A DNA stretch of 40,450 nucleotides, taken from contig JADGCQ010000022.1 in assembly GCA_015228925.1 (NCBI GenBank), positions 1 to 40,450 of the forward strand, given 5' to 3'. Of this stretch, positions 1,618 through 40,275 are shown piece after piece. The stretch is from Magnetococcales bacterium (lineage in GTDB: Bacteria; Pseudomonadota; Magnetococcia; Magnetococcales; UBA8363). The stretch's first letter is position 1; every line of letters starts with the position of its first letter. The translations under genes were made by a program, and so were the position numbers. The notes under the pieces were generated by a model. It saw only the letters and a list, made by a program, of their open reading frames with translations. It was not told where the DNA came from and made no database searches.

Positions 1618-4600
1618 ATGAGGCACAATCGGTTGTTGATGTTGTTTTTTATCTTTTCGTTTTCTGTGGGTGTTGCTTGCTTTGTCATCCAGGCGCGTGC
1701 GGAGGATGGACGATCCATTCGTGTGGGTGTCTATCAAAATCCTCCTGGGGTGTTTTTGGACGCCGAGGGGGAAATTCGCGGTTTTTATATTGATCTTCTG
1801 AAAGATAGTGCCCAGGAACAGGGGTGGTCACTCCGTTTTGTCCCAGGGAGATGGGAAGATAATCTGCGGCGTCTGGAAAACGGTAGTATCGACCTTTTGA
1901 CTGCGGTGGCCTATACCGAGGCACTGGATCATAAATTTGATTTTACCAAACAAACCATTTTTTCCAATTGGGGACAGGTTTACACCAACGACAGACAGAT
2001 CGATTCGATCCTTCTCCTGAAAAATCGTCTCATCGCGGGCGTCAAGGGCGATGTTTATACCATTGGCCTGGAAAAACTTCTCAAAGCGTTCGACTTTCCG
2101 TATGAGATGCTCTACGTTGGCAGTTATGAAGATGTATTGACGCAAGTTGAAAATGAATATGCCGATGCCGGCATCATCCCCCGCTCGACGGGAATGGTCA
2201 TCGACCATAATTTTGATGTCTTTAAAAGTCCCGTCAATTGCTGTCCTGTTGAAATTCGTTATGCCGTCAAGGGGGGGACTCATGCGGATGTGCTGGCTGC
2301 CCTGGACACCCATCTGCAAAAGCTTAAAGGGGATGAAACTTCCCTGTATTATACGGCACTAAATCAATGGTTTGGCGGTGTCAAGCGGCAGATCTTCCCA
2401 AGATGGCTGCTGTGGTTGCTGGCGGCGGGATCCGGTACTGCGGTTCTACTCTTTATCGGCAACTTGGTGTTGCGCAACCAAGTCAAGGCGCGAACTGTGG
2501 CGTTGGAAAAGGAGATCGTTGTCCGGCAGCAGGCAGAAGCCGATTTGCGTGAAGCGATGCATAATCTGCGGACCATCCAGGTGGCTCCGGGGGTTATTTG
2601 GATGCAGATTCCTGAGGCGAGACTTTTTATCCTGTGCGGTTGTCCGGGTGAGGTCGTCAAACATTTGATGCATCGCGGTCTGATCCAACGGACCACATGC
2701 GATGGGGTGACCTGGGAGACCGGCCCCAATGTCGTTTTACTTTCCGATCTGCTGATTCAAAATGGTGGATTTGCCAATCTGTCCGAATTTCCCATTTTGC
2801 AAATGCTGTATCGTCAGGGGATGATGTTACCCAACCATCCCAACAATACGGGTGTCAAACCCATGCTGATTGGAACCCAATCGCAGGTTCGGGCGCAGTT
2901 GCATTATATCCATCGGGGCAACTATGGCTTGTTGAATAAGGAAGAGCTTTTGGCAACGGGGGTCGATGCGACGACTGCCGACATGATGATGAAGATTAAA
3001 ATGAAATTTGCTTTTGGGGCCATTCGTGAACCCTCCGAGATTGTCGATTCGCTGTTTGTAGATACCAAGCCGGTGGAAATTCGCAATGGTGTCAGCGTTG
3101 CACGCATTGCCCTGAATACGTATCGTTTTTATTATCGGGGAGACTCTGCCGATGTGGACCTTAACCTCCCTGCGGGTGCGGTGTATGAACCCCCCTATCC
3201 TTTGGGTCAGCATCGCATCCCCCGACATCATAATTTTGCGATTCTCCATACCGGCCAAGGGGATGGATGGGATCGCAATCGTCCCAGCATGTCCAGTGTG
3301 ATCCTCTATCATGGGCTGATTTATCTGATCGATGCCGGTCCGGGGGTGTTGCAGGTTTTGACCTCTCTGGGGATCGACATTTCCGAGGTGGAAGGGATTT
3401 TTCATACCCATGCCCATGATGACCATTTTGCGGGGTTACCGGCCCTGATCCGGTCGGATCGGCGTATGCGCTATTATGCAACGCCTATGGTGCGCTCTTC
3501 GGTGGTCAAGAAATTTTCTGCCCTCATGAGTCTTGATGAAGGGCAGTTTTATCAATTTTTCGATGTTTGTGATTTGCGGAGCGAACAGTGGAACGATTGT
3601 GATGGGCTTTTGGTCAAGCCCTGTTTTTCTCCGCATCCGGTGGAAAATACCATGTTTCTTTTCAAGGCCAGGGAAGGAGACGAGGAGAAGACCTACGGCC
3701 ATTGGGCGGACCTATCCAGTTTCAAGGTGTTGGATGGGATGGTGGGGATGGGAGAACACGATATTCCGGCAGAGGTCATGGAGGGGATCAAACGGACATA
3801 CCTGGAAGTGGCCAATCTGAAAAAATTGGATATTGGTGGTGGCATGATCCACGGTGTTGCGGAGGATTTTCGCTGTGACCGGTCAGACAGGCTGATTTTG
3901 GCACATATCGACCGTAAATTGACACCGGAGGAGATGGAAATCGGTTCCGAGGCCGCTTTTGGGGCGGTGGATATTTTAATCCCTGGAGAAAAGAAAATCT
4001 TGATGGATAAAGCCTTTGGCTTTCTCAAGGCTTTCTTTCCGCACATTGCCGATGAAGAAATTATGGCATTGGTTCAGGCACCCATGGTTCACTACAATGC
4101 GGGGACCATCATTCATCGCGCCCAGGACCATTCCGATCATATGGGGATGGTTCTTTCTGGCACTGTGGCGCACCTTGAAGCCCAGAATGGGATCATCAAC
4201 CATTTGTCCATCGGTTCATTTTTGGGGGGGACCGAGTTTCTTGGACTGGAATCCGAAGACTCCTGGACTTTGCGAAGTATTTCCGATTGCATGGTGATCT
4301 CGTTATCCAACGAGAAGGTTTTGGGGTTTCTTGAAAGAAATCATTTAAAGCAAGATTTCATCGATGCCATGCGGAAGATACGCTTCTTGAGAAAGACGCG
4401 ATTGTTGGGCGAAGCGACCACATCATTTACCTTGGACCGGATTGCACGTACCCTGTCTCCAATGGCCTTTGAGGCGGGGGAGGTGTTATCCATCTCGGAT
4501 CATCATTGTCTGTGGATGGTCCGTTCAGGCCGGGTTGCCTTGTTGGGCGATGACGGGCAGTTGGTGGAGGAATTGGGTGTCGGCGGTGTTTTTGGCGAAC

Positions 4601-4758
4601 AAAATTTTTTAAATCCATCCATGCGTGGGTGTACGGCCCGTGCTGTGGAAACGGGTTCCTTGTTTCAGATGGCGTATGAAGGTTTGATCAACATTCCCAT
4701 CGTGCATTGGAAAATGTTGGAGTTATATGATAAACGCTGGCGTTTCAAACAGCAGTAG
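1618..4758 (+). CDS. Membrane receptor-like fusion: SBP_bac_3, TM, MBL fold, two cNMP-binding-like domains
   Basis: A 1046-residue protein. Residues 1-28 are a signal peptide ending ARA. About 30-255 form a periplasmic amino-acid-type solute-binding domain (RVGVYQNPPGVFLDAEGEIRG start; IDLLTAVAYTE). A transmembrane helix spans about 262-285, followed by a coiled-coil linker (286-316). About 320-560 is a region I cannot assign. Next is a metallo-beta-lactamase fold with the THxHxDH motif (H598, H600, D602, H603); H673, an Asp near 698 and H763 are possible further metal ligands. Two cNMP-binding-like domains follow (about 808-905 and 938-1030). The phosphate-cassette GE is GG in the first and GE in the second, so only the second looks able to bind ligand. 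SBP-TM-coiled coil usually leads to a kinase or cyclase; here it leads to a hydrolase fold. The substrate is unknown. The permease gene follows 37 bp downstream. Confidence 0.85.
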   Translation: MRHNRLLMLFFIFSFSVGVACFVIQARAEDGRSIRVGVYQNPPGVFLDAEGEIRGFYIDLLKDSAQEQGWSLRFVPGRWEDNLRRLENGSIDLLTAVAYTEALDHKFDFTKQTIFSNWGQVYTNDRQIDSILLLKNRLIAGVKGDVYTIGLEKLLKAFDFPYEMLYVGSYEDVLTQVENEYADAGIIPRSTGMVIDHNFDVFKSPVNCCPVEIRYAVKGGTHADVLAALDTHLQKLKGDETSLYYTALNQWFGGVKRQIFPRWLLWLLAAGSGTAVLLFIGNLVLRNQVKARTVALEKEIVVRQQAEADLREAMHNLRTIQVAPGVIWMQIPEARLFILCGCPGEVVKHLMHRGLIQRTTCDGVTWETGPNVVLLSDLLIQNGGFANLSEFPILQMLYRQGMMLPNHPNNTGVKPMLIGTQSQVRAQLHYIHRGNYGLLNKEELLATGVDATTADMMMKIKMKFAFGAIREPSEIVDSLFVDTKPVEIRNGVSVARIALNTYRFYYRGDSADVDLNLPAGAVYEPPYPLGQHRIPRHHNFAILHTGQGDGWDRNRPSMSSVILYHGLIYLIDAGPGVLQVLTSLGIDISEVEGIFHTHAHDDHFAGLPALIRSDRRMRYYATPMVRSSVVKKFSALMSLDEGQFYQFFDVCDLRSEQWNDCDGLLVKPCFSPHPVENTMFLFKAREGDEEKTYGHWADLSSFKVLDGMVGMGEHDIPAEVMEGIKRTYLEVANLKKLDIGGGMIHGVAEDFRCDRSDRLILAHIDRKLTPEEMEIGSEAAFGAVDILIPGEKKILMDKAFGFLKAFFPHIADEEIMALVQAPMVHYNAGTIIHRAQDHSDHMGMVLSGTVAHLEAQNGIINHLSIGSFLGGTEFLGLESEDSWTLRSISDCMVISLSNEKVLGFLERNHLKQDFIDAMRKIRFLRKTRLLGEATTSFTLDRIARTLSPMAFEAGEVLSISDHHCLWMVRSGRVALLGDDGQLVEELGVGGVFGEQNFLNPSMRGCTARAVETGSLFQMAYEGLINIPIVHWKMLELYDKRWRFKQQ

Positions 4759-26297: not shown

Positions 26298-26432
26298 GGA
26301 AATGGGTATTATTGCATGTTGACATGATCGTCATACCTGTTTATGGTCCATAGGTTGCAAGGGAAGTGTGCCATGGTAGGCAGTGCCGTGGCATCTTCTT
26401 CCAATCGAACACCTGTCCGGCAAGAAGGCCTT

Positions 26433-27455
26433 ATGAATACCAGATTTTCTCTCTGTTTGATTCCCATGTTTATCCTTCCGGTGCTGGTGTTGGGGGGGTG
26501 TGTGGAATCTGAAAACATGGCCAAGGTGCGTATTGAGACGGGTCCGCCGTTGGCATGGGGGCTGGAACCGAGTCCCACGATCAAGCCATCCAAGAGCGGG
26601 GTCTATATTGTTCAGCCTGGCGATACCTTGTGGGCTATTGCGGCGGTCCATGGGGTTGAAGTGGAAGATTTGGCACAGTGGAATCGGCTCCAAAATCCCG
26701 ATCAATTGTGGGTTGGGCAGGGTTTGGTGACCAGCAAACCCGCTGACGAGGATCATCCGGTTGTATCGGGACCTCTGCAACCTCCCAAGGCGTCGGTGAG
26801 TGATATTGAGGATGTCAGGGCCAAAGATAAAGATGTTGCCAAAGCTGATGTCGGCAGGGTTGATGGTGCCAAAGCTAAAGAACCGCCCCAGGAACCATCT
26901 CCCAAGCCTGTGATGGCGAAAGTGGAAAGTGTCAAACAGCCTGTCGCAGATGATGAGCGGGTTCAGCTACCGGTGGTGCCACCCGCAATGAAACCCAAGG
27001 CGGTTGCCAATGATGACGAGGATCGTCCGGCCCCGGCAGAGGTCAAGTCATCGTGGGTGCTTCCTCCCGATGCGCCCAAGACCTGGATTTGGCCACATTC
27101 GGGGAAAGTGATCAGCAAATTTGGTAAAACGGGTGCCCGGCAGAATAATGGTATCGATATTGCGGCCAATGAGGGTGATGCGGTTGTCGCATCGGCGGAT
27201 GGTATCGTCGCCTACGCCGATGACAGTCTCCCTGGGTATGGTAATTTAATTCTTTTGCGGCATGGGGGATTTTTTACCACCGCCTATGGTCATAACCAGA
27301 AGATTTTGGTCAAGCGGGGGCAAGCGGTAAAAGCGGGAGAGAAGATTGCTTTGGCAGGTAAGTCGGGGGGGGCAAAACAGCCGCAACTTCATTTTGAGTT
27401 GAGACGCCATATCACACCCCTCAATCCTCTTTCCAGTTTACCCCGGCGCGATTAA
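26433..27455 (+). CDS. nlpD: NlpD-type LysM/LytM lipoprotein, amidase activator
   Basis: A 340-residue outer-membrane lipoprotein; NlpD activates the amidase AmiC during daughter-cell separation in E. coli. The signal ends in lipobox LGGC (Cys23). A LysM domain (about 57-101, VYIVQPGDTLWAIAAVHGV) binds peptidoglycan. A low-complexity Lys/Pro/Ala linker follows. The LytM domain (about 210-335) is degenerate: the first zinc His is Asn238 (NNGID) and the catalytic HxH is QLH. Both losses are typical of NlpD/EnvC activators and not of active M23 hydrolases. The start was chosen from the lipoprotein signal, with AAGG just upstream. rpoS, a frequent partner, is not next to it. Confidence 0.87.
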   Translation: MNTRFSLCLIPMFILPVLVLGGCVESENMAKVRIETGPPLAWGLEPSPTIKPSKSGVYIVQPGDTLWAIAAVHGVEVEDLAQWNRLQNPDQLWVGQGLVTSKPADEDHPVVSGPLQPPKASVSDIEDVRAKDKDVAKADVGRVDGAKAKEPPQEPSPKPVMAKVESVKQPVADDERVQLPVVPPAMKPKAVANDDEDRPAPAEVKSSWVLPPDAPKTWIWPHSGKVISKFGKTGARQNNGIDIAANEGDAVVASADGIVAYADDSLPGYGNLILLRHGGFFTTAYGHNQKILVKRGQAVKAGEKIALAGKSGGAKQPQLHFELRRHITPLNPLSSLPRRD

Positions 27456-30050: not shown

Positions 30051-32003
30051 TTGAATATCCCCGCGCCATCATGTTCCCCTCGTCGGCTTTCGCAGGCTGG
30101 TTTAAAATGGTCCACCTTGGGCCTTTTGGCCAACGTTCTGCTGTCTGGCTGTACGGTGACGGTACCCAGCATCACCATGGTGGAGCAGGAACAACGGGCC
30201 AAACAAGACCAAGCCATCCTGTTTGCCGCGCAAAAAATCCCGGCGGAACCGTTGACCTTATACGAGGCTATGGCACGATCCCTGAAGTATAATCTGGATT
30301 TGCGCCAAAAGTGGATGGAGGAGGCACTATCCAGCAAGCAGAAGGATGTCTCGCAATTGGAGATGCTGCCAAGATTGGTCGCTTCGGCGGGTTATTCTTC
30401 GCGTGCCCCGGTCAATGCCGCAATCAGCAAATCGGTGGCGAGCGGTGCAATCTCCCAAGAGGCTTCCGTCTCCAGCGATCCGATCAGCAGAAACATGGAT
30501 CTGACGCTGAGTTGGAATTGGCTCGATTTTGGTTTAAGCTATTTTCAGGCACGCCAGGATGGCAATAAAGTATTGGTGCAGCGTGAATATCGACGCAAAG
30601 CGGCTCATAATCTGATCAGAGATGTCCGTTTTGCATTCTGGAAGGCGGCGGCTGCCCAATCGTTGGAAAGGGATATGGTGGTCATTCGCAAGGCTACCGG
30701 GCAGGCCCTTGAAGAGGCACGCAAGGCGGAGCAGGAAGGGTTGCGTTCTCCGATCCATGCGTTGCAGTTTCAGTTGGGTATGCTGGAAGTTATGCGGCAG
30801 ATAGAAAAATCTTTGGCCGACCTTTCGTTGGCCAGGGAAGATCTGGCCGTTTTGATCAATCTGGCACCGGGTACACCCTATCGCCTCTGCGACGACAGTG
30901 GTGCTATGGACACGGCGTTGGCCATTGGCGCGTCTCCAGAGACGTTGGAGCAGATAGCCCTTTCTTCCAGACCCGAATTGTTGATCGAACAGTATCAGGC
31001 CCGTATCGAAGCGGATGAAACGCGGAAAGCGATTGCCCGTCTATTCCCCGGTTTGGAATTGAATCTATCGGAAAACTACGATGGCAATACCTATCTGGTG
31101 AATCAACGCTGGGTGCAGGCGGGTGCGCGGTTAAGCTGGAATCTTTTACAAACCGTGACGGGTCAGTCTTCGTTGGATCTTTCCGACCAACGGGAAGAGG
31201 TGGTGCGGATGCGGCGTCTCGTTGCCCATATGGCGGTTTTGAGTCAAACCCGTATCGCCTATCAGGAGTATCAAACCGCCCGCGACATGCTGCAACGGGC
31301 TGTCATCGAGAATGCAACGCGACAACGGATGCAAAAATATTCTGCCGACCGTAGCGATTTGGGATTGGAAAGTCAGTTGAGTGCTGTCCATGCGGCGGCG
31401 TCTTTGGTGCTAGGTCGCATCCAACAATATGAAGCCTATGCCCGTTATCACAATGCATTGGGTCATTTATATGCCACGCTGGGGCTGGATCCACTTCAGG
31501 AGGAGGGGGCGCACGGGGATATTGCGCTGATGGTGCGGCAATTGCGGGAGAACGAAGCCCGTTGGCAGCAGACGATTTTTCCGTCCGTCACCCCTGCATG
31601 GATTTCCGCCAAGGAGGCGATGGTACCCCTTCCTGTTGCCGGGTTGCTTTGGGATAAGGCGATACAGGATCGGCCAGCACCGCAAGCCGCCGTGACTGTA
31701 TCTGAGGTACCGCAGCCGGTTTCTTCGACGCTTGAGACCAAGCCGTCGCAGCGATCCGTTCCCCAATTTGTCGTTCAGGTGATCGCCTCGGGTGATGCGG
31801 TAGAAATCGATACCATGGTGGCGTATCTGAAAACCAAAGGATACCAGCCGTATGTCAACCGGGTTCATGACGGCGATGGCCATGTCATCATGCAAATTTG
31901 GATTGGTCGCTATGAAAAGATGGCCGATGCCCAGGTTGCCATGGAAAACTATCGGGCGTCGGAACAACGACCCGTTTTTGTCAGAATGTTGACTGGCCGA
32001 TAA
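30051..32003 (+). CDS. TolC-like outer-membrane factor lipoprotein with C-terminal SPOR domain
   Basis: About 650 residues from a TTG at 30051; the frame opens at 29880 inside truA, so the true start is unsure. A lipoprotein signal, STLGLLANVLLSGC, is visible. The middle (about 65-500) is an outer-membrane efflux (TolC/NodT-type) domain: paired long helices with LTLYEAMARSLKYNLDL, strand segments (DLTLSWNWLDFGLSYFQARQ; GARLSWNLLQTV), and coiled-coil runs. After a Pro/Ala/Ser linker the last 80 residues (from about 572, QFVVQVIASGD...VIMQIWIGRYEKMADAQVAM) form a SPOR domain, which normally binds denuded septal peptidoglycan. It could tether the channel to the wall or septum. It converges with the minus-strand secretion genes and may serve the same system. 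Confidence 0.8.
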   Translation: MNIPAPSCSPRRLSQAGLKWSTLGLLANVLLSGCTVTVPSITMVEQEQRAKQDQAILFAAQKIPAEPLTLYEAMARSLKYNLDLRQKWMEEALSSKQKDVSQLEMLPRLVASAGYSSRAPVNAAISKSVASGAISQEASVSSDPISRNMDLTLSWNWLDFGLSYFQARQDGNKVLVQREYRRKAAHNLIRDVRFAFWKAAAAQSLERDMVVIRKATGQALEEARKAEQEGLRSPIHALQFQLGMLEVMRQIEKSLADLSLAREDLAVLINLAPGTPYRLCDDSGAMDTALAIGASPETLEQIALSSRPELLIEQYQARIEADETRKAIARLFPGLELNLSENYDGNTYLVNQRWVQAGARLSWNLLQTVTGQSSLDLSDQREEVVRMRRLVAHMAVLSQTRIAYQEYQTARDMLQRAVIENATRQRMQKYSADRSDLGLESQLSAVHAAASLVLGRIQQYEAYARYHNALGHLYATLGLDPLQEEGAHGDIALMVRQLRENEARWQQTIFPSVTPAWISAKEAMVPLPVAGLLWDKAIQDRPAPQAAVTVSEVPQPVSSTLETKPSQRSVPQFVVQVIASGDAVEIDTMVAYLKTKGYQPYVNRVHDGDGHVIMQIWIGRYEKMADAQVAMENYRASEQRPVFVRMLTGR

Positions 32004-32013
32004 CCTGGATGCA

Positions 32014-32460
32014 TCAGTCGATCAACGCCGCCATGGCACTGTGCATTTTGTCTAACCGTTCGACAATGATTTCCGCCAGCTTTCTGGTGATTTTAAGTTG
32101 CAGTGCGCAGTCGAATTGTTCCATGGTGTTGCGATCCAGCGTGAAGGCTTCCACGATGCCATCCGCGATGATGCTGGCCATGCGGCTGCGTCCGTTGACC
32201 AAGAAGGCCGCTTCTCCGACGATGGAACCCGTTTCGATGTAATCGATGATGTGGTTGCGGTATTCCTCTTTGCGTACCGATGCCGCGCCGGTCAAAATGA
32301 TAAAGACGGCGGAATTTTTAAAATCTCCCTGCTGAATGATCACCTCCCCATCCTTGAACCGCACAAAAGAACGGTTGCCGACCGCTAACATCTCTTTTTC
32401 CGCATGGCTGAATCCTGAAAAAAAAGGGATTCTCTCCATCATTTCAAGAGTTGTGTTCAT
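32014..32460 (-). CDS. Stand-alone cyclic-nucleotide-binding domain protein
   Basis: 148 residues forming one Crp-type beta-roll with helices and no DNA-binding domain. The start is IPFFSGFSHAEKEML, the roll is FKDGEVIIQQGDFKNSAVFIILTGAASV, and the phosphate-binding cassette is GSIVGEAAFLVNGRSRMAS; the Glu and Arg that contact the cyclic nucleotide phosphate and sugar are both present. The C-terminal helices could dock on a partner. AAGGA lies upstream of the ATG. It follows the TolC-like gene by 24 bp on the same strand, so it is probably part of the secretion locus. The ligand (cAMP, cGMP or none) is unknown. Confidence 0.83.
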   Translation of the reverse strand: MNTTLEMMERIPFFSGFSHAEKEMLAVGNRSFVRFKDGEVIIQQGDFKNSAVFIILTGAASVRKEEYRNHIIDYIETGSIVGEAAFLVNGRSRMASIIADGIVEAFTLDRNTMEQFDCALQLKITRKLAEIIVERLDKMHSAMAALID

Positions 32461-32484: not shown

Positions 32485-34107
32485 TCAGTTTACCTCCATG
32501 GTCCCCGCATGGCGTTCCATATCGTCCCGGTCCATGCCCTCAAGAATTTCCACATAGTCGATCAGAGAATCGGTTGCCGGTTTGTCCCATTCCTGGAAGG
32601 GGAAGTCGGGATTGGAAGAGGAGGTCACGGATCCCTTCATCGGGAACGCGAGAGGGATCATTTTCGATTCTGCAATGGCAACGGTCTCCTCCAGTAGGGA
32701 AGGGAATGCCAGATCCGACAGCGGAATCTCCCGATCACGGTGTGTTGCGGTGACATCTTCCGGCGGGGCACGGTTTTTTTCGGAGAATATGGGAGAGGAA
32801 ACGGTGTCGGCTTTGGCCATGACCTCCGCCAGAACACCCATGCTGGAGAGCAAATCAAGGTTTGAAAGTAACCGTTTATACCGTTCTTCCACCAAGTTGC
32901 GTTTGGCGGAAAAAACATCGTTGAGGGCGTTGAGGGCATCCAGATGAGACCGGGTTCCCAACGCATATTCCTGCTGATAGGCGGCGGCGACCTGTTCCTG
33001 AACCAACAGATGTTGTTCCATCAGTTGCACCTGTTGTTCTTCGGAGTTTGCGGTATGCCAAGCAGAGGAAACCTCTTTGGCCAGTTGTCGGCGAGCCTGT
33101 TCCAATTTTTCCTGGGATTGGTACATCCTGTTGGCCGTTTCCCGATTGTGCGCCCAATCGCTCCCCCCCTTGAACAGATTATATTCCAATGTGAACATGG
33201 CCGAAGCACTTTTGGTATAGCTACGGGTTCCCGATATGTTGGCATTGTCACTCATGTTCATTTCAAGGTTTACTTTGGGCAACAGGCTTGAGATGGACAT
33301 TTTTTTTTCGGCTTCCGCCGCTTCCAGCTCCGCCTGCGAAACCTCAATGGCGGGGGCTTTGTTCCAGGCCAAATTCAGGGCCTTTTCCAGACTGCCGGGC
33401 AGCATCTCCGTGGAAATGTCGGGAAACGTCAGATCTACCGGCGCACTTCCCGTGATCTCGGTGAAACGGGCCTCCGCATCCTGTAATTTTCTGAGTGTTG
33501 TCGTCCGCTCCGAACGCGCCAGCACCAGACGGCTGCGGGATTGATTGGCCTCGATGTCGGTTCCCATGCCAATTTGGGCCAAAGCCTCCATTTTCTTGAC
33601 GATCTGTTCCAGGACGCGGATGGCTTCATCGTTGACTTCGAGGATTTCCATCTGCTTGAGGGTTTCCAGATAAATTTCCACGGTGTCTTGCGTCACTTTA
33701 TTGATGGTGTCCTGCAATCCCGCTTCCGAAGATCGTGCCTGGGCTTCGGCTTGTTTAAAACGGTGGAACGTATTCAAGCCATCAAACAAAATCTGGTTGA
33801 TCGAAAGACCCAACTCACCGCGATCCAAGGCGTAGCCCCCCTCAATGGCCCGGGTCGTCGGACTGGATGTCCATTCCCGTCCGGTCCCCATGTGGAGGTC
33901 TATTTTAGGCAAAAAACCTGCAAAAGCTTGGTTGATGCGTTGATCCCAGGCGTGATAATCGCTGATTGCGGCCAACACCTTGGGGTTGCTGGCCATGGCG
34001 ATGCCAACTGCCTCCTGAAGGGTTTGCGCTTTAAGTTCCGTCAGGGGACTTAAGCTCAACCCTAAAGCTATGGCAGCGAATACCCGAAAGAGTGAGAGGG
34101 ATGTCAT
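32485..34107 (-). CDS. TolC family type I secretion outer-membrane protein
   Basis: 540 residues from ATG 34107, giving a signal peptide (MTSLSLFRVFAAIALGLSLS, cut near LKA-Q at about 27-28). TTG 34173 is an alternative. It shows two TolC repeats: TLQEAVGIAMASNPKVLAA, LPKIDLHMG and ELGLSINQILFDG, then LPKVNLEMNMSDNANISG and FTLEYNLFKGG, with long coiled-coil helices between them. It forms the outer-membrane tunnel of a type I secretion machine, as LapE/AggA types do. The C-terminal 100 residues (from about 440) are an acidic, low-complexity periplasmic tail not usual in TolC. It is divergent from the ABC-ABC-HlyD operon, which supports a joint role. Confidence 0.9.
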   Translation of the reverse strand: MTSLSLFRVFAAIALGLSLSPLTELKAQTLQEAVGIAMASNPKVLAAISDYHAWDQRINQAFAGFLPKIDLHMGTGREWTSSPTTRAIEGGYALDRGELGLSINQILFDGLNTFHRFKQAEAQARSSEAGLQDTINKVTQDTVEIYLETLKQMEILEVNDEAIRVLEQIVKKMEALAQIGMGTDIEANQSRSRLVLARSERTTTLRKLQDAEARFTEITGSAPVDLTFPDISTEMLPGSLEKALNLAWNKAPAIEVSQAELEAAEAEKKMSISSLLPKVNLEMNMSDNANISGTRSYTKSASAMFTLEYNLFKGGSDWAHNRETANRMYQSQEKLEQARRQLAKEVSSAWHTANSEEQQVQLMEQHLLVQEQVAAAYQQEYALGTRSHLDALNALNDVFSAKRNLVEERYKRLLSNLDLLSSMGVLAEVMAKADTVSSPIFSEKNRAPPEDVTATHRDREIPLSDLAFPSLLEETVAIAESKMIPLAFPMKGSVTSSSNPDFPFQEWDKPATDSLIDYVEILEGMDRDDMERHAGTMEVN

Positions 34108-34352
34108 CACCGATTTTATTGACCAAGTTGTGACCGTCACTATCGAGAAACTTCGTAAGGCGTGTGTATCCAAGCAACAAACATGCCTTTAGCTGAATTA
34201 ATAAAAAAATATAATGCAATCAACGATGATTAACGTGGGGTGTGTGACTTGTCAAAAAATGTTAATATATGTTCATGTTTAACGTTTGCCGTCGTTTGAT
34301 TTCATTCAATAGCCGTCGTTGGATGGTTGCATCGGGGTGTTGAGACTTGACT
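34108..34352. promoter_or_regulatory. AT-rich divergent promoter region of the secretion locus
   Basis: 245 bases between divergent starts, clearly richer in A/T than its surroundings. A perfect TATAAT at 34210-34215 faces the ABC genes but lacks a good -35. TTGTCA (34249-34254) is a second candidate -35 without a convincing -10. An activator-dependent promoter would fit. No gene is seen. Confidence 0.4.
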
Positions 34353-36104
34353 ATGGCAGCCAAGGATAATTTTTTTTCCAACAAGGGGTGGCCGGCGCGG
34401 CTGACACCATTTTCGATGGTTTCCACGGTCATGGGCGATCTGTTTTTGGTCTCCTTCATGATCAACTTGCTTGGATTGGCCCTGCCGCTGACCCTTTTGC
34501 AGATTTATGATCGCATCCTCCAGTTTCAAGCGGTCAGTACGTTGAGCCTCCTGATTATTGGCGTGAGTGTCGCCCTGCTCCTCGAAGGGGTTTTGCGCAT
34601 AGGGCGTTCCTATATCGGAGCTTGGTTGGGGGCACGTTTTGAGCATCTGGCCGCGTGTAGTGCCGTGGAACGGTTGTTGACCACCAATCTGGCCGCTTTT
34701 GAACGGGATGGTGCCGGTGTCCACCTGGAACGGCTCAACGCCCTTAACATCCTCAAAGATTTTTATGCCGGGCAGGCGGTAGGGGTCATTTTGGACCTGC
34801 CATTCGTGGTGGTGTATCTGGGCCTCATGTACCACTTGGCCCAAAGTTTGGTTTTGGTTCCGCTGGTCGTTTTTGCGCTGTTTGTCGTCTTTGTGGTGCT
34901 GATTGGCGAAAATTTGCACAAACTGGTGGGGGCGCGCATCGAATCGGATGATCGCAGAATCAACTTCATCATCGAAATTTTGGGAGGGATCCACGCCATT
35001 AAATCCATGGCCATGGAAGCGATGATGCTCCGGCGTTATGAGCGGTTGAGCGAAGCGTGTGCCAAGGGGGCGGAGGATGTCGGCATCCAAGGGGCCGATT
35101 CGCAAAATATTGGGGCTTTTTTTGGCCAGATTTCCATGGTGGGGGTGGTGGCTTACGGGGCCATCATGGTGGTCCAGCAGGAGTTGACCATCGGTGGGCT
35201 TTCGGCGTGTACCATGCTGTCCGGTCGGGCGTTGCAACCTTTGCAAAGGGCAGTGGGGATCTGGACTCGGTTTCAGACCATCCGTCTGGCCAAGGATCGG
35301 GTCGCCAAAATTTTTGAATTGCCGGAAAATGACAGTGCCAGCAAGCCCCCCATTCCCGCCATCATCGGACGGTTGACTATGGAAGAGGTCTCCTTTGGTT
35401 TTTCCGAGGATAAACCACCGCTGTTACATGACATTTCCCTGGATGTGCAACCGGGTGAAATCATCGGTATCTCGGGTGACAACGGGAGTGGGAAAACAAT
35501 TCTTTTGTGGTTGATGATGGGGGCATTGAAACCGACTAAGGGGCGGGTTTTGATCGATGGGTATGACTTGGCAACCCACGATACCAACAGCATCATGGAT
35601 AAAATTTCCTATTTGCCCCAGGTTGGTATGTTGTTTCGGGGTACCATTCTGGAAAATATCCACATGTTTCGGAATCAATATTTGGATGAGGCGACCAAGA
35701 CGGCGCATCTATTTGATCTGGAAGAGTTTGTATCCAAGCTTCCCAAAGGTTTTGAAACCATGATCGATGATGGTGCCGATGAATCCATCCCCAGGGGTAT
35801 CAAACAACGGATCACTTTGGCCAGATCCATGGTGACACATCCCAAGGTGATTTTGTTCGACGAGGCGAACACGGGGATCGATGGACGTGGGGATGAAAAT
35901 TTAAAGAAAGTTTTTGAGGAGATGAAAACGAAGGCGACCATCATCCTGATCAGTGCCCGTCCCTCCTTGTTGAGTCTTGCGGATCGTTCTTTTTTGTTGA
36001 AGGAGGGAACTTTGATCCCCAAGCCCCCACCCGCGGCCAAATCCCAATCCGTGCCTCTGGTGGGGAATGGGGTGCCACCCGTACTGCGGCAGGTCACGGC
36101 ATGA
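34353..36104 (+). CDS. Type I secretion ABC exporter subunit 1, degenerate ATPase site
   Basis: 583 residues from ATG 34353 (a TTG two codons earlier is also in frame). The membrane domain (about 25-290) begins directly with helices, DLFLVSFMINLLGLALPLTLLQIYDRI being typical of type I secretion exporters; there is no C39-like domain. The nucleotide domain has Walker A GDNGSGKT (375-382) and Walker B ILFDEAN (Asp503, Glu504). The signature LSGGQ is SIPRGIKQR, and the H-loop His is Ala535 (ISARPS). It probably pairs with the next gene product as a heterodimer in which one ATP site is weak. It overlaps that gene by 4 bp (ATGA). Confidence 0.9.
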   Translation: MAAKDNFFSNKGWPARLTPFSMVSTVMGDLFLVSFMINLLGLALPLTLLQIYDRILQFQAVSTLSLLIIGVSVALLLEGVLRIGRSYIGAWLGARFEHLAACSAVERLLTTNLAAFERDGAGVHLERLNALNILKDFYAGQAVGVILDLPFVVVYLGLMYHLAQSLVLVPLVVFALFVVFVVLIGENLHKLVGARIESDDRRINFIIEILGGIHAIKSMAMEAMMLRRYERLSEACAKGAEDVGIQGADSQNIGAFFGQISMVGVVAYGAIMVVQQELTIGGLSACTMLSGRALQPLQRAVGIWTRFQTIRLAKDRVAKIFELPENDSASKPPIPAIIGRLTMEEVSFGFSEDKPPLLHDISLDVQPGEIIGISGDNGSGKTILLWLMMGALKPTKGRVLIDGYDLATHDTNSIMDKISYLPQVGMLFRGTILENIHMFRNQYLDEATKTAHLFDLEEFVSKLPKGFETMIDDGADESIPRGIKQRITLARSMVTHPKVILFDEANTGIDGRGDENLKKVFEEMKTKATIILISARPSLLSLADRSFLLKEGTLIPKPPPAAKSQSVPLVGNGVPPVLRQVTA

Positions 36105-38275
36105 GTGGGAATCCCAAAAATCGTGATGTGGAACTCGAAGCCATCGCCAAAAATCTTCGGCCTCAGGATGGTGTCGGCGGCTTATTGGCGGAATTTGGCC
36201 AAATGTCCGATTTTGGGGCCTGTATTGTCCCGTTGCTTCTTGCCATTGGCTATCGCGGCGATCTACGCCATGTCGCCGAAGCGTTGCCGCATTTTGCCGA
36301 AACGCTGGATCTGACCGGCTTTCGCAACATGATGGCCAACATGTCCTACATCAGCCGCGAAGGGCGGCTCAATATGGCCACGTTGGATCCCAGGCTTCTT
36401 CCATGTCTGTTCGTCCCGGACCGCGGGGGGGTCATGGTGTTGTTGAAACGGAATCTTGATTCCATCATTTGTTTCAATGGAGAATTGCGGCGTGTGGAAA
36501 GAATGCCGACACATTCGATTTCTGGACGGGCGTTCTTTTTTGAACTGATGGACCTGGAACAGTGGGAATCGGCACAGACCCGCCTGGGGTGGTTCCGCAT
36601 GATTGCCGAACGATTTCGCACGATCATCGGGTTGATCTTGCTTGTGACCTTCGCCATTACATTGCTACAGGTTGCCACCCCCATGTTTGTCATGGCGGTC
36701 TATGACCGGGTGGTGGGTAGCCGTTCCATCAGCACCTTGATTCACCTCCTTATCGGCATCAGCGTCGTCATTTTTTTCGACTGGATACTGCGCAAGACTC
36801 GGACAAAAATGTTGATGTATGTCGGCTCACGGCTCGATTCCATCGTCAGTAACGCCATTTTTATGCGCATTCTCTCGCTGACGCCCAGTTTTACCGAACG
36901 GGCACCCATTGGTGCCCAGGTTTCGCGGATCAAAGACTTTGACAGTGTGCGCGAGTTTTTTACCGGACCACTGATGATGGTTTTTTTTGAAATGCCTTTT
37001 ACGGTGGTATTTTTTATCGTCATTGCCATCCTAGGCGGTAGTCTGGCGTTGATTCCCATGGTAACCATGGTGCTGTTTGTCGTTCTGTGGGCGGTGATGA
37101 TGCCTTTGGTGACCAATCATGAGGCCAAAAGTCGGCGTATGGCGGCAAAAAAACAGGAATTTGCCGTGGAAGCCTTGGGAAAAATCCGGGGGATCAAATA
37201 TGCCGGTATTGAAAAAATATGGATGGATCGTTATCGGGATTTGGCCGCCAGTTCCGCCATGACCAACTTTGATACCGCGATGATCAATGCGGCGGTCAAT
37301 ACCATGGCGCATGTGTTGATTGTCGGGTCGGGGGTTGCCACGATTGGGACCGGGGTGTTCAAGGTGTTGGATGGCACCATGAGTACCGGTGGCTTGGTGG
37401 CCTCCATGATTTTGGTCTGGCGGGTTCTTGGCCCCATGCAGAGTGCTTTTATCGCCATGACCCGGTTGGAACAGGTACGCAATTCCGTCAAACAGATCAA
37501 CGGCCTCATGGGTGTGGTTCCCGAACGTAAGGAGCATGCCCCCATCGAGCCGATCAAGCCCTTGGAAGGTTTTGTCTCATTTGTCCGCGTCAGCATCCGC
37601 TATACACCGGAGTCGGAACCCTCCCTCATGGGGGTCTCTTTTGATATCCAACCGGGCACCATTGTTGCTGTGATTGGACGCAATGGTTCGGGAAAATCCA
37701 CGGTGGTCAAGTTGATTGCCGGACTTTATCAACCCCAGGCGGGAAGTATTCGTATCGATGGCCAGGATATCCGGCAAATGAATTTGATTGAGTTGCGGCA
37801 TTCCATTGCCTATGTCCCGCAAAGGTGTTCCCTGTTTTATGGCACGATCAAACAAAATTTGCTGTTGGCCCATGCCACCGCTTCTGATGATGATGTGGAG
37901 CGGGCTTGCCGTATGGCGGGTGTTTACGATGAAATTATGGCTTTGCCACAAAAATTTTGGACCCGGGTTGGGGATCAAAAGGCGACCAATTTGCCATCGA
38001 GCATGATACAAAAACTATCATTGGCCCGGGCCTACCTGAAACCGGCCAAAATTATGTTGTTTGATGAACCGGCCAATACCCTCGACTGGGAAGGAGACCA
38101 AGCTTTCATGAAGGTTGCCCGTTCTCTGCGGGGTGAGCGGACCATGTTTATTGTGACCCATCGTCCCAGTCATATCCGTATGGCCGATCAGATTCTTTTT
38201 TTCGACCATGGTTATTTGCGTCTGGCCGGTTCCCCCGAACAGATACTTTCCAAAATTCCCAATGATCTGGTATGA
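36101..38275 (+). CDS. Type I secretion ABC exporter subunit 2 with N-terminal C39-like domain
   Basis: 724 residues. The N-terminal 150 residues resemble the C39 peptidase-like domain of RTX exporters (GGLLAEFGQMSDFGACIVPLLLAIGYRGD) without the catalytic Cys-Gly motif, so it would bind substrate and not cut it. The membrane domain spans about 170-460 (TIIGLILLVTFAITLLQVATPMFVMAVYDRVVGS). The nucleotide domain has Walker A GRNGSGKST (526-534), Walker B MLFDEP (Asp655, Glu656) and H-loop His687 (VTHRPS). The signature is LPSSMIQKL in place of LSGGQ. It is coupled by ATGA overlaps to both the gene before and the gene after it. Confidence 0.92.
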   Translation: MSGNPKNRDVELEAIAKNLRPQDGVGGLLAEFGQMSDFGACIVPLLLAIGYRGDLRHVAEALPHFAETLDLTGFRNMMANMSYISREGRLNMATLDPRLLPCLFVPDRGGVMVLLKRNLDSIICFNGELRRVERMPTHSISGRAFFFELMDLEQWESAQTRLGWFRMIAERFRTIIGLILLVTFAITLLQVATPMFVMAVYDRVVGSRSISTLIHLLIGISVVIFFDWILRKTRTKMLMYVGSRLDSIVSNAIFMRILSLTPSFTERAPIGAQVSRIKDFDSVREFFTGPLMMVFFEMPFTVVFFIVIAILGGSLALIPMVTMVLFVVLWAVMMPLVTNHEAKSRRMAAKKQEFAVEALGKIRGIKYAGIEKIWMDRYRDLAASSAMTNFDTAMINAAVNTMAHVLIVGSGVATIGTGVFKVLDGTMSTGGLVASMILVWRVLGPMQSAFIAMTRLEQVRNSVKQINGLMGVVPERKEHAPIEPIKPLEGFVSFVRVSIRYTPESEPSLMGVSFDIQPGTIVAVIGRNGSGKSTVVKLIAGLYQPQAGSIRIDGQDIRQMNLIELRHSIAYVPQRCSLFYGTIKQNLLLAHATASDDDVERACRMAGVYDEIMALPQKFWTRVGDQKATNLPSSMIQKLSLARAYLKPAKIMLFDEPANTLDWEGDQAFMKVARSLRGERTMFIVTHRPSHIRMADQILFFDHGYLRLAGSPEQILSKIPNDLV

Positions 38276-40275
38276 ACGCCTTCTCCATGACAGATCTTCG
38301 TCCTTCAGGATCGAAAGAAAAGGGGACCGTCCCTGGAAAAGCGCAGGGGGATACACCGCCCGCCAGGAGTGGTTTGAATATTCGCATGGGGCAGAAGAAA
38401 CCATCCTCGAACTCGCAAGAGACATCCAAGCCCCCTGAGGCGAACCGATCACCTCTTGGCATTGCCCTGAAAGTGGGGAAGCCGCCGAAAGCGGTTGCGG
38501 ATGGACCAAAGCCCAAAGAGTCCGATCCGACGACGCATCCGCAACCGGCCCCGCAACCCGATCGTCCCCCTTTGACCATTGCCCAGGTGCCGCGTGCGAC
38601 TGCGGCTCCAACGTCCACCCCCTCGGCAACAGAGGGGGTGGGTGTTGTCCCCAAGCCCAAGGAATCCCAACCGGGTGCTGCGGCCAAGGCACTCATACCT
38701 CCCAAGCCAAAGGGATCGGAAACGATTGCTCCCGCTTCTAGTGGCCCCCCTGGTTCTCAAGGGGAACCCCCCCAGGGGGCCGCTTTACCGGTGCCAAAAC
38801 CACCGGAAACGACGGTGCCGGTTCCGGTGGCTGCTCCCGTGGCTGTGCCCAAGGTTGAAAAAAGGGAAGAAAAACAGGACTGGCTGGTGCGTGTCCAACA
38901 GGAACCGGAATCGTTGCAATCCCTGTTGGAGCCGGAGCCGGAGGAGGTCGCCCGTTTAAAGCAAGGGTATAAGCAACACCGTTTTATGGCGCAATCGGTG
39001 ATTTTGGAAGAGTCGGGTTTGTCCAATCAGGTACGATCCGCCATGTTTGCGGTTTCTCTGCTGATTGTCGCTTTTTTTGTCTGGGCTTCGTTTTCTTCCA
39101 TGGATGAAATCGCTTCGACCCAAGGGCAGGTGATGCCATCCAGCCCAGCGCAGTTGATTCAACATCTGGAGGGGGGGATTATTCGGGAAATTTTGGTCCA
39201 GGAGGGGCAAATCGTCAAAAAGGATGCATTGCTGGTCCGTTTGGATTCGGAGGGTGTTCTGGCGGATTTGAATCAACTCAAAGCCAAAAGGGCCTCTTTG
39301 CAGGCACAGGAGATTCGTATTCGTGCGGTTCTTTCGGGCAAAGACGCCAATTTTAATGAAATTGATCAGCAATATCAATCATTCATCCAGGGGCAGCATT
39401 TGCTATTGTTGGCGCAACGCTCCGCTTTGGCCAGCGAACGGGGGGTGTTGGAGACCCGGATCTCCCGGTCTCGATCACGGATTGAGAATCTGCTGGTACA
39501 ACAACAAAATATTGAAAAGCAACGGGCTTCCCTTTCCCAGGAATTGGGGATGAAGGATCAGGGGTATGAGCAGGGGGTGGTATCTCGGCTGGCGGTTTTA
39601 GGGTCTCAACGGGATTTTGCCAGGATCGAAGCGGAGGAAGTTCGAAACCAGGGTGATCTTACTGCGGCCAAACGGGAGTTGGAAGAGGCACTGGGTGATT
39701 TGGACGAATTGTTGAAAAAGGCCCGTGAAACCAATTTGCGGGAATTGGCAGCGGTGACGACCGACCTGGCGCAGGCGGAGGAACAAAGCCGCAGGCTTTC
39801 GGATCGGGTCCAGCGGTTGGAGGTGCGTTCGCCGGTGTGGGGGGTGGTCAACAATCTTCAGGTGAATACGGTTGGCGGTGTGATCACACCGGGGGCTTTG
39901 ATTGCTGAAATTATCCCGATGGATTCGACGCGCCGTGTGGAAACTCGGATCAGTACCCGGGATATTGGCCATGTGGCTGTCGGACAGACCGTTACTGTGA
40001 AGGTGACGACCTATGATTTTGCACGTTATGGCGGTATCAACGGTATCCTGGAATCGGTTTCGCCGACAACATTCAAGCAACAGGATGAAAAGGAACCCTT
40101 CTACAAAGGGATTATCCGTCTGGATCAACCGTATGTTGGCAAAGATGAGAAGAAAAACCCGGTGCTTCCGGGGATGACCGTGCAGGCGGACATCGATACC
40201 GGTTCCAAGACTTTGATGGAATACATGCTCAAGCCCATTTATGCTTCGGTGAACAAGGCTTTCCGGGAAAGGTAA
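38272..40275 (+). CDS. HlyD-family membrane fusion protein with long proline-rich cytosolic region
   Basis: Bridges the inner-membrane ABC exporter and the TolC tunnel. 667 residues; usual members have about 390-480. Residues 1-205 are Pro/Lys/Ser/Ala-rich and likely disordered, with repeated PKPKES-like units. About 206-255 form a charged helix, and one membrane helix lies at about 258-278 (MFAVSLLIVAFFVWASF). The periplasmic part is standard: the lipoyl half QLIQHLEGGIIREILVQEGQIVKKD, long coiled coils (about 325-510), VRSPVWGVVNNL, then a beta barrel ending KNPVLPGMTVQADIDTG, the family's C-terminal signature, and KTLMEYMLKPI. It overlaps the preceding exporter gene by 4 bp. Confidence 0.95.
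   Translation: MNAFSMTDLRPSGSKEKGTVPGKAQGDTPPARSGLNIRMGQKKPSSNSQETSKPPEANRSPLGIALKVGKPPKAVADGPKPKESDPTTHPQPAPQPDRPPLTIAQVPRATAAPTSTPSATEGVGVVPKPKESQPGAAAKALIPPKPKGSETIAPASSGPPGSQGEPPQGAALPVPKPPETTVPVPVAAPVAVPKVEKREEKQDWLVRVQQEPESLQSLLEPEPEEVARLKQGYKQHRFMAQSVILEESGLSNQVRSAMFAVSLLIVAFFVWASFSSMDEIASTQGQVMPSSPAQLIQHLEGGIIREILVQEGQIVKKDALLVRLDSEGVLADLNQLKAKRASLQAQEIRIRAVLSGKDANFNEIDQQYQSFIQGQHLLLLAQRSALASERGVLETRISRSRSRIENLLVQQQNIEKQRASLSQELGMKDQGYEQGVVSRLAVLGSQRDFARIEAEEVRNQGDLTAAKRELEEALGDLDELLKKARETNLRELAAVTTDLAQAEEQSRRLSDRVQRLEVRSPVWGVVNNLQVNTVGGVITPGALIAEIIPMDSTRRVETRISTRDIGHVAVGQTVTVKVTTYDFARYGGINGILESVSPTTFKQQDEKEPFYKGIIRLDQPYVGKDEKKNPVLPGMTVQADIDTGSKTLMEYMLKPIYASVNKAFRER

Follow-up and report, generated by a model that had tools for sequence, protein, structure and literature searches.

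Outer-membrane factors of the TolC/OprM/CusC kind (Pfam OEP; NodT-type) resemble the channel described here in their OEP repeats, helical-barrel fold and N-terminal lipobox; the present channel differs in having a SPOR domain at the end of a flexible linker, and its genomic linkage is to giant repeat proteins, not to pumps. Type I systems (LapBCE/HlyBD-TolC) likewise combine a TolC-like channel with HlyD-like adaptors, whereas the operons of this channel family elsewhere carry an M50-HlyD gene, with no type I ABC match nearby. The SPOR fold and its conserved Gln are shared with FtsN, DamX, DedD, RlpA and CwlC, which are division proteins or wall hydrolases and not channels. The nearest experimental precedent is PilQ, likewise an outer-membrane pore with a wall-binding domain, whose AMIN domains bind the wall, bring the pilus machine to division sites and are proposed to localise and anchor the pore (PMC5285504). 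PilQ, however, is a secretin with AMIN at its N-terminus and its wall role was shown by experiment, whereas the present protein is of the TolC type, carries SPOR at its C-terminus and is known from sequence and models. No published description of an OEP-SPOR channel was found in the literature searched, most subscription papers lying outside it.

The window, by which we mean the whole stretch of 40,450 nucleotides analysed, is one entire contig of a Magnetococcales genome of 4.25 Mb in 219 contigs. The gene under study is a single unbroken reading frame (Table 1); its TTG start is plausible, but a clear ribosome-binding site was not found. Pfam detects two OEP matches in the 650-residue protein (E 4.2e-23), and the full AlphaFold model shows a helical barrel, followed by a disordered linker and then a SPOR domain, with TolC, OprM and CusC as its best structure matches. 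Both repeats and the fold are thus present, as expected of an OEP member. The lipobox Cys34 is invariant across 30 aligned homologs; among 143 members of the channel family, 127 have a loose lipobox pattern, and none has Asp at position +2. The product belongs to the outer-membrane lipoproteins of the TolC/OprM type and carries SPOR at its C-terminus, and its description as a lipid-anchored outer-membrane channel bearing a tail of the wall-binding type is well supported. The sequence-only reading had proposed a TolC-like lipoprotein carrying a C-terminal SPOR domain beside a SPOR-less TolC-like gene, and each of these assignments was borne out.

Table 1. Positions in the window of the gene, its parts and its downstream neighbours
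Feature	Position	Strand	Basis or remark
OEP and SPOR lipoprotein gene	30051..32003	+	650 aa; TTG start assumed
Signal peptide and lipobox LLSGC, Cys34	30051..30152	+	sequence
Outer-membrane-factor region, residues 67-478, two OEP repeats	30249..31484	+	Pfam OEP; weak TIGR01844; fold match
Linker, residues about 511-568	31581..31754	+	disordered in model; pLDDT <50 at 518-555 and 557-568
SPOR domain, residues 573-646	31767..31988	+	Pfam, tail profile, AlphaFold, Foldseek
Gln576, aligning with FtsN Q251 and RlpA Q270	31776..31778	+	alignment
Single-domain cNMP-binding protein gene, downstream neighbour	32014..32460	-	Pfam, ortholog loci
Second TolC-like gene, without SPOR	32485..34173	-	Pfam
Two ABC exporters and HlyD adaptor (type I secretion type)	34347..40275	+	adjoin channel in window

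Judged by its own Pfam score alone, the SPOR identity of the tail is borderline. A profile search returned a match to PF05036 over residues 573-644, almost the full profile, but at 16.8 bits for the protein, 19.1 bits for the tail alone and 20.5 bits in a whole-genome scan, all below the Pfam cut-off of 21. The tail is assigned to SPOR because the scores of relatives, a profile of the family's tails and the predicted fold concur. All ten family proteins of relatives scanned by Pfam, seven of them orthologs, have SPOR above the cut-off, and nine of the ten also match OEP (L143 matches SPOR only). When a profile of 24 tails was compared with solved structures, the first seven matches were the SPOR domains of CwlC, DedD, DamX, FtsN and RlpA. 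The AlphaFold model of the tail has the beta-alpha-beta-beta-alpha-beta order of the SPOR fold at a pLDDT of about 95, and the top eight Foldseek matches include DedD at rank 1, CwlC at rank 4 and RlpA at ranks 5 and 8. The source genome holds 24 SPOR matches at E 0.01, and a second OEP-SPOR protein is encoded on its contig C214 (SPOR, 27.9 bits).

The strand-1 Gln, Gln576 here, is kept in 19 of the 24 aligned tails and in 11/11 SPOR-bearing orthologs (counted by eye), and the corresponding residue of FtsN (Q251) and RlpA (Q270) contacts glycan (PMC6895207). The position of FtsN R285, an Arg that aids septal glycan binding, is occupied by Gln615 and is not basic. According to the same source, only the Gln is highly conserved among SPOR domains, the residues that form the basic patch differ from one domain to another, and many SPOR-glycan contacts are made by the main chain (PMC6895207). 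Gln615 is therefore compatible with SPOR membership, and glycan binding by the tail is plausible on these sequence grounds.

Matches to the channel occur in 47 of 61 genomes, including 46 of the 48 within the order. In a larger set of 398 genomes, 350 lie outside the order, and 34 of these have a match. A single-sequence search of genome contigs returned one locus, the G001 ortholog (Magnetococcales), 70% identical over residues 1-535. We took a census of the tails of 143 channel frames, of which the 61 genomes supplied 123; the other 20 were drawn from 18 of the 34 matching genomes outside the order, long reading frames being favoured in this draw; 23 duplicate OEP reading frames were left out before counting, among them a copy on contig C111 of the source genome, which has an identical stretch of 200 residues in common with L068, and the tail of L107 (masked bases) was omitted from A1. 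A recognised wall-type module was present in 59 channels: SPOR in 31, NTF2/Cds6_C in 17 (seven of which also have SPOR), SH3 in 10, OmpA in five and AMIN in three. The remaining 84 had no recognised tail module, a figure that includes some frames ending at contig ends (e.g. L025, L066). Pfam scans of 97 tails (SPOR 30, Cds6_C 17, SH3_3 10, AMIN 3) and of representatives agree with the census. The linker of the 31 SPOR-tailed channels varies from 43 to 334 residues. Wall-type tails turn up in separate clades, and on a FastTree tree the presence of SPOR requires at least 13 changes, long branches leaving the details unsure.

Among the 15 orthologs, the window included, 11 have SPOR and four do not (L010, L015, L019 and L020), and the nearest one (70% identical) is without it. 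A frameshift as the cause was rejected: the ends of these four encode no SPOR, whichever frame is read. Anchoring is therefore not essential to the channel, and across the family wall-type tails are recurrent yet dispensable. Domains of the Cds6_C-type NTF2, SH3 and OmpA kinds are wall-related and are not known to be septal. AMIN is likewise a wall-related domain (PMC5285504). That one channel family carries five kinds of wall-type module suggests general wall anchoring rather than a septum-specific role. The sequence-only reading had left open whether the tail would place secretion at the division site or anchor it to the wall; the repeated pairing of the family with different peptidoglycan-type modules favours the wall, and placement at the division site is the less probable of the two. 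We regard it as unlikely that SPOR acts as a localiser bringing export to the septum, as the AMIN domains of PilQ do for the pilus machine. Such a role would fit the affinity of SPOR domains for denuded glycan, which is enriched at the septum (PMC6895207), the combination of wall-binding domain and outer-membrane pore in PilQ (PMC5285504) and the retention of Gln576, but it sits poorly with the OmpA, SH3 or NTF2 modules of related channels, the loss of SPOR from four of 15 orthologs and the Gln at the R285 position.

Adjacency in the window would pair the channel, as outer-membrane component, with the adjoining type I system (two ABC exporters and HlyD), the second TolC-like gene being an alternative channel, and two distant homologs (L136 and L153) also adjoin large LssB-like ABC reading frames, one of them with an HlyD gene as well. 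However, two ABC exporters and an HlyD at comparable scores are found at one of the 15 ortholog loci only, the window itself; conserved linkage of the channel to such genes is absent at the other 14. Moreover, the system has a TolC of its own in the neighbouring operon, and no type I ABC match lies near the channel at any of 20 loci outside the order. The type I genes were thus dropped as partner, since the ortholog loci give no support, and the tie to them that the first reading implied fails across orthologs; we hold a role of the channel in this type I system to be doubtful. Some other features of these loci may be recorded. The ABC-exporter frames at L136:367-4818 and L153:3546-7589, of about 1484 and 1348 residues, are possibly two exporters fused. 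A lone cNMP-binding domain gene, as in the window, occurs near the channel in seven of the 15 ortholog loci, the window being one of them. A few genes upstream of the channel, positions 26343-27455 encode an M23 peptidase with LysM, read as NlpD-like. Elsewhere in the window, positions 1618-4758 encode a 1046-residue protein with solute-binding, metallo-beta-lactamase and cNMP-binding domains.

By gene position and co-occurrence, the conserved partner of the channel is instead a giant DUF4347/LEPR repeat protein. DUF4347 giants are present in 46 of the 61 genomes, 45 of which also have the channel. A DUF4347 match lies within 3 kb of 38 of 124 channel matches (0.94 expected) and within 10 kb of 51 of 124 (2.6 expected). 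Among 55 channel-giant pairs within 15 kb, counted after exclusion of six tail-only or fragment channel rows and six weak or second-segment DUF4347 rows, 25 are divergent, 30 are on the same strand and none is convergent. Nine of the 15 orthologs are divergent from a DUF4347 giant; the other six have no giant within 3 kb, two of them (G023 and G028) lying at contig edges. With the N-terminal 282 residues of the G001 giant as query, a subfamily stood out: 14 genomes gave matches of at least 288 bits, and the next match scored 183.5. Channel orthologs (at least 566 bits) also occur in 14 genomes, 13 of which are common to both sets (hypergeometric 3e-11, a value that ignores the relatedness of the genomes). 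Within the window's genus (eight genomes), three have giant and channel, four have neither and one, 78% complete, has the giant alone. The window has no giant next to the channel, the type I set adjoining instead; the source genome encodes one on another contig, C179, as a complete frame of 2690 residues, which shares 73.5% identity with the giant next to the G001 ortholog across 1253 aligned residues.

Giants of this subfamily have close to their N-terminus a motif resembling LEPR-XLL; the NCBIfam LEPR models gave no match in the giants. By eye, the C-termini of giants at six loci (L176, L186, L123, L179, L171 and L172) share a P-G-F-S-x-Q-L-like stretch, which might act as a signal for export. 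The literature includes a LEPR-XLL giant some 8000 residues long (PMC10868602). How DUF4347 proteins leave the cell was described nowhere in the papers searched, most subscription papers lying outside them.

Further genes accompany the channel family at other loci. On contig C111 of the source genome the order is giant, channel (with an SH3-like tail), RND-type adaptor, HlyD-like adaptor and M50-HlyD protein; channel, both adaptors and M50-HlyD occur together at 14 of the 20 loci outside the order, DUF4347 at five of the 20, and M50-HlyD relatives in 46 of the 61 genomes. At two loci, L125:2997-8951 (G000:C190) and L126:3112-8820 (G004:C6), a LEPR-motif giant and an OEP lipoprotein form one frame, of 1985 and 1903 residues, respectively, with a lipobox at the joint, and at L154:8378-13225 (G009:C333) a DUF4347 giant runs in frame into an RND-type adaptor; an internal start could split such fused frames. 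A lipoprotein with three SPOR matches is encoded at L127:4593-6443 (G000:C133), directly upstream of a DUF4347 frame of 4534 residues, and the pair has a close copy in G004:C78. The window channel has no adaptor gene of the RND/HlyD operon kind beside it, and would therefore depend on adaptor genes at other loci or on the HlyD of the adjoining type I set.

These loci also bear on whether the protein is an ordinary NodT-type efflux lipoprotein for small molecules with an inconsequential SPOR tail, which appears very improbable. NodT-type factors do have the lipobox and fold in common with it, and the first adaptor of the channel family matches an RND adaptor model; yet no RND pump gene is found among the annotated genes at the 20 loci outside the order or at those of the source genome, the linkage to giant genes is far above chance, giant-channel and giant-adaptor frames exist, and wall-type tails recur in separate clades. 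Export of giant proteins by the channel would be the best reading of these arrangements. It is conceivable, if tentative, that the loci represent a system, so far undescribed, that exports giant surface proteins of the DUF4347/LEPR kind, with a wall-held lipoprotein TolC-like channel bearing interchangeable modules, two HlyD-type adaptors, an M50-HlyD membrane protein replacing the ABC exporter, and cargo and channel sometimes in one frame.

On balance, we favour for the protein itself a role as wall-anchored exit channel of an export module whose likely cargo is one giant DUF4347/LEPR subfamily. Nine relatives encode such a giant divergently beside the channel; the source genome has its own on C179. 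The N-terminal lipid and the barrel would hold the protein in the outer membrane. The C-terminus of TolC-type channels is on the periplasmic side, where the flexible linker and SPOR domain could grip peptidoglycan glycan strands, a trimer providing three such grips. From this arrangement we infer a mechanical role: the anchor may steady the channel during export, or hold the cell surface with a very large surface protein suspended from the channel.

What keeps an outer-membrane channel for very large proteins in place at the cell wall is poorly understood. Repeated gain of different peptidoglycan-type modules by one channel family makes wall anchoring directly testable, and the loci hint at how the giant DUF4347/LEPR proteins so common in these genomes may exit the cell.
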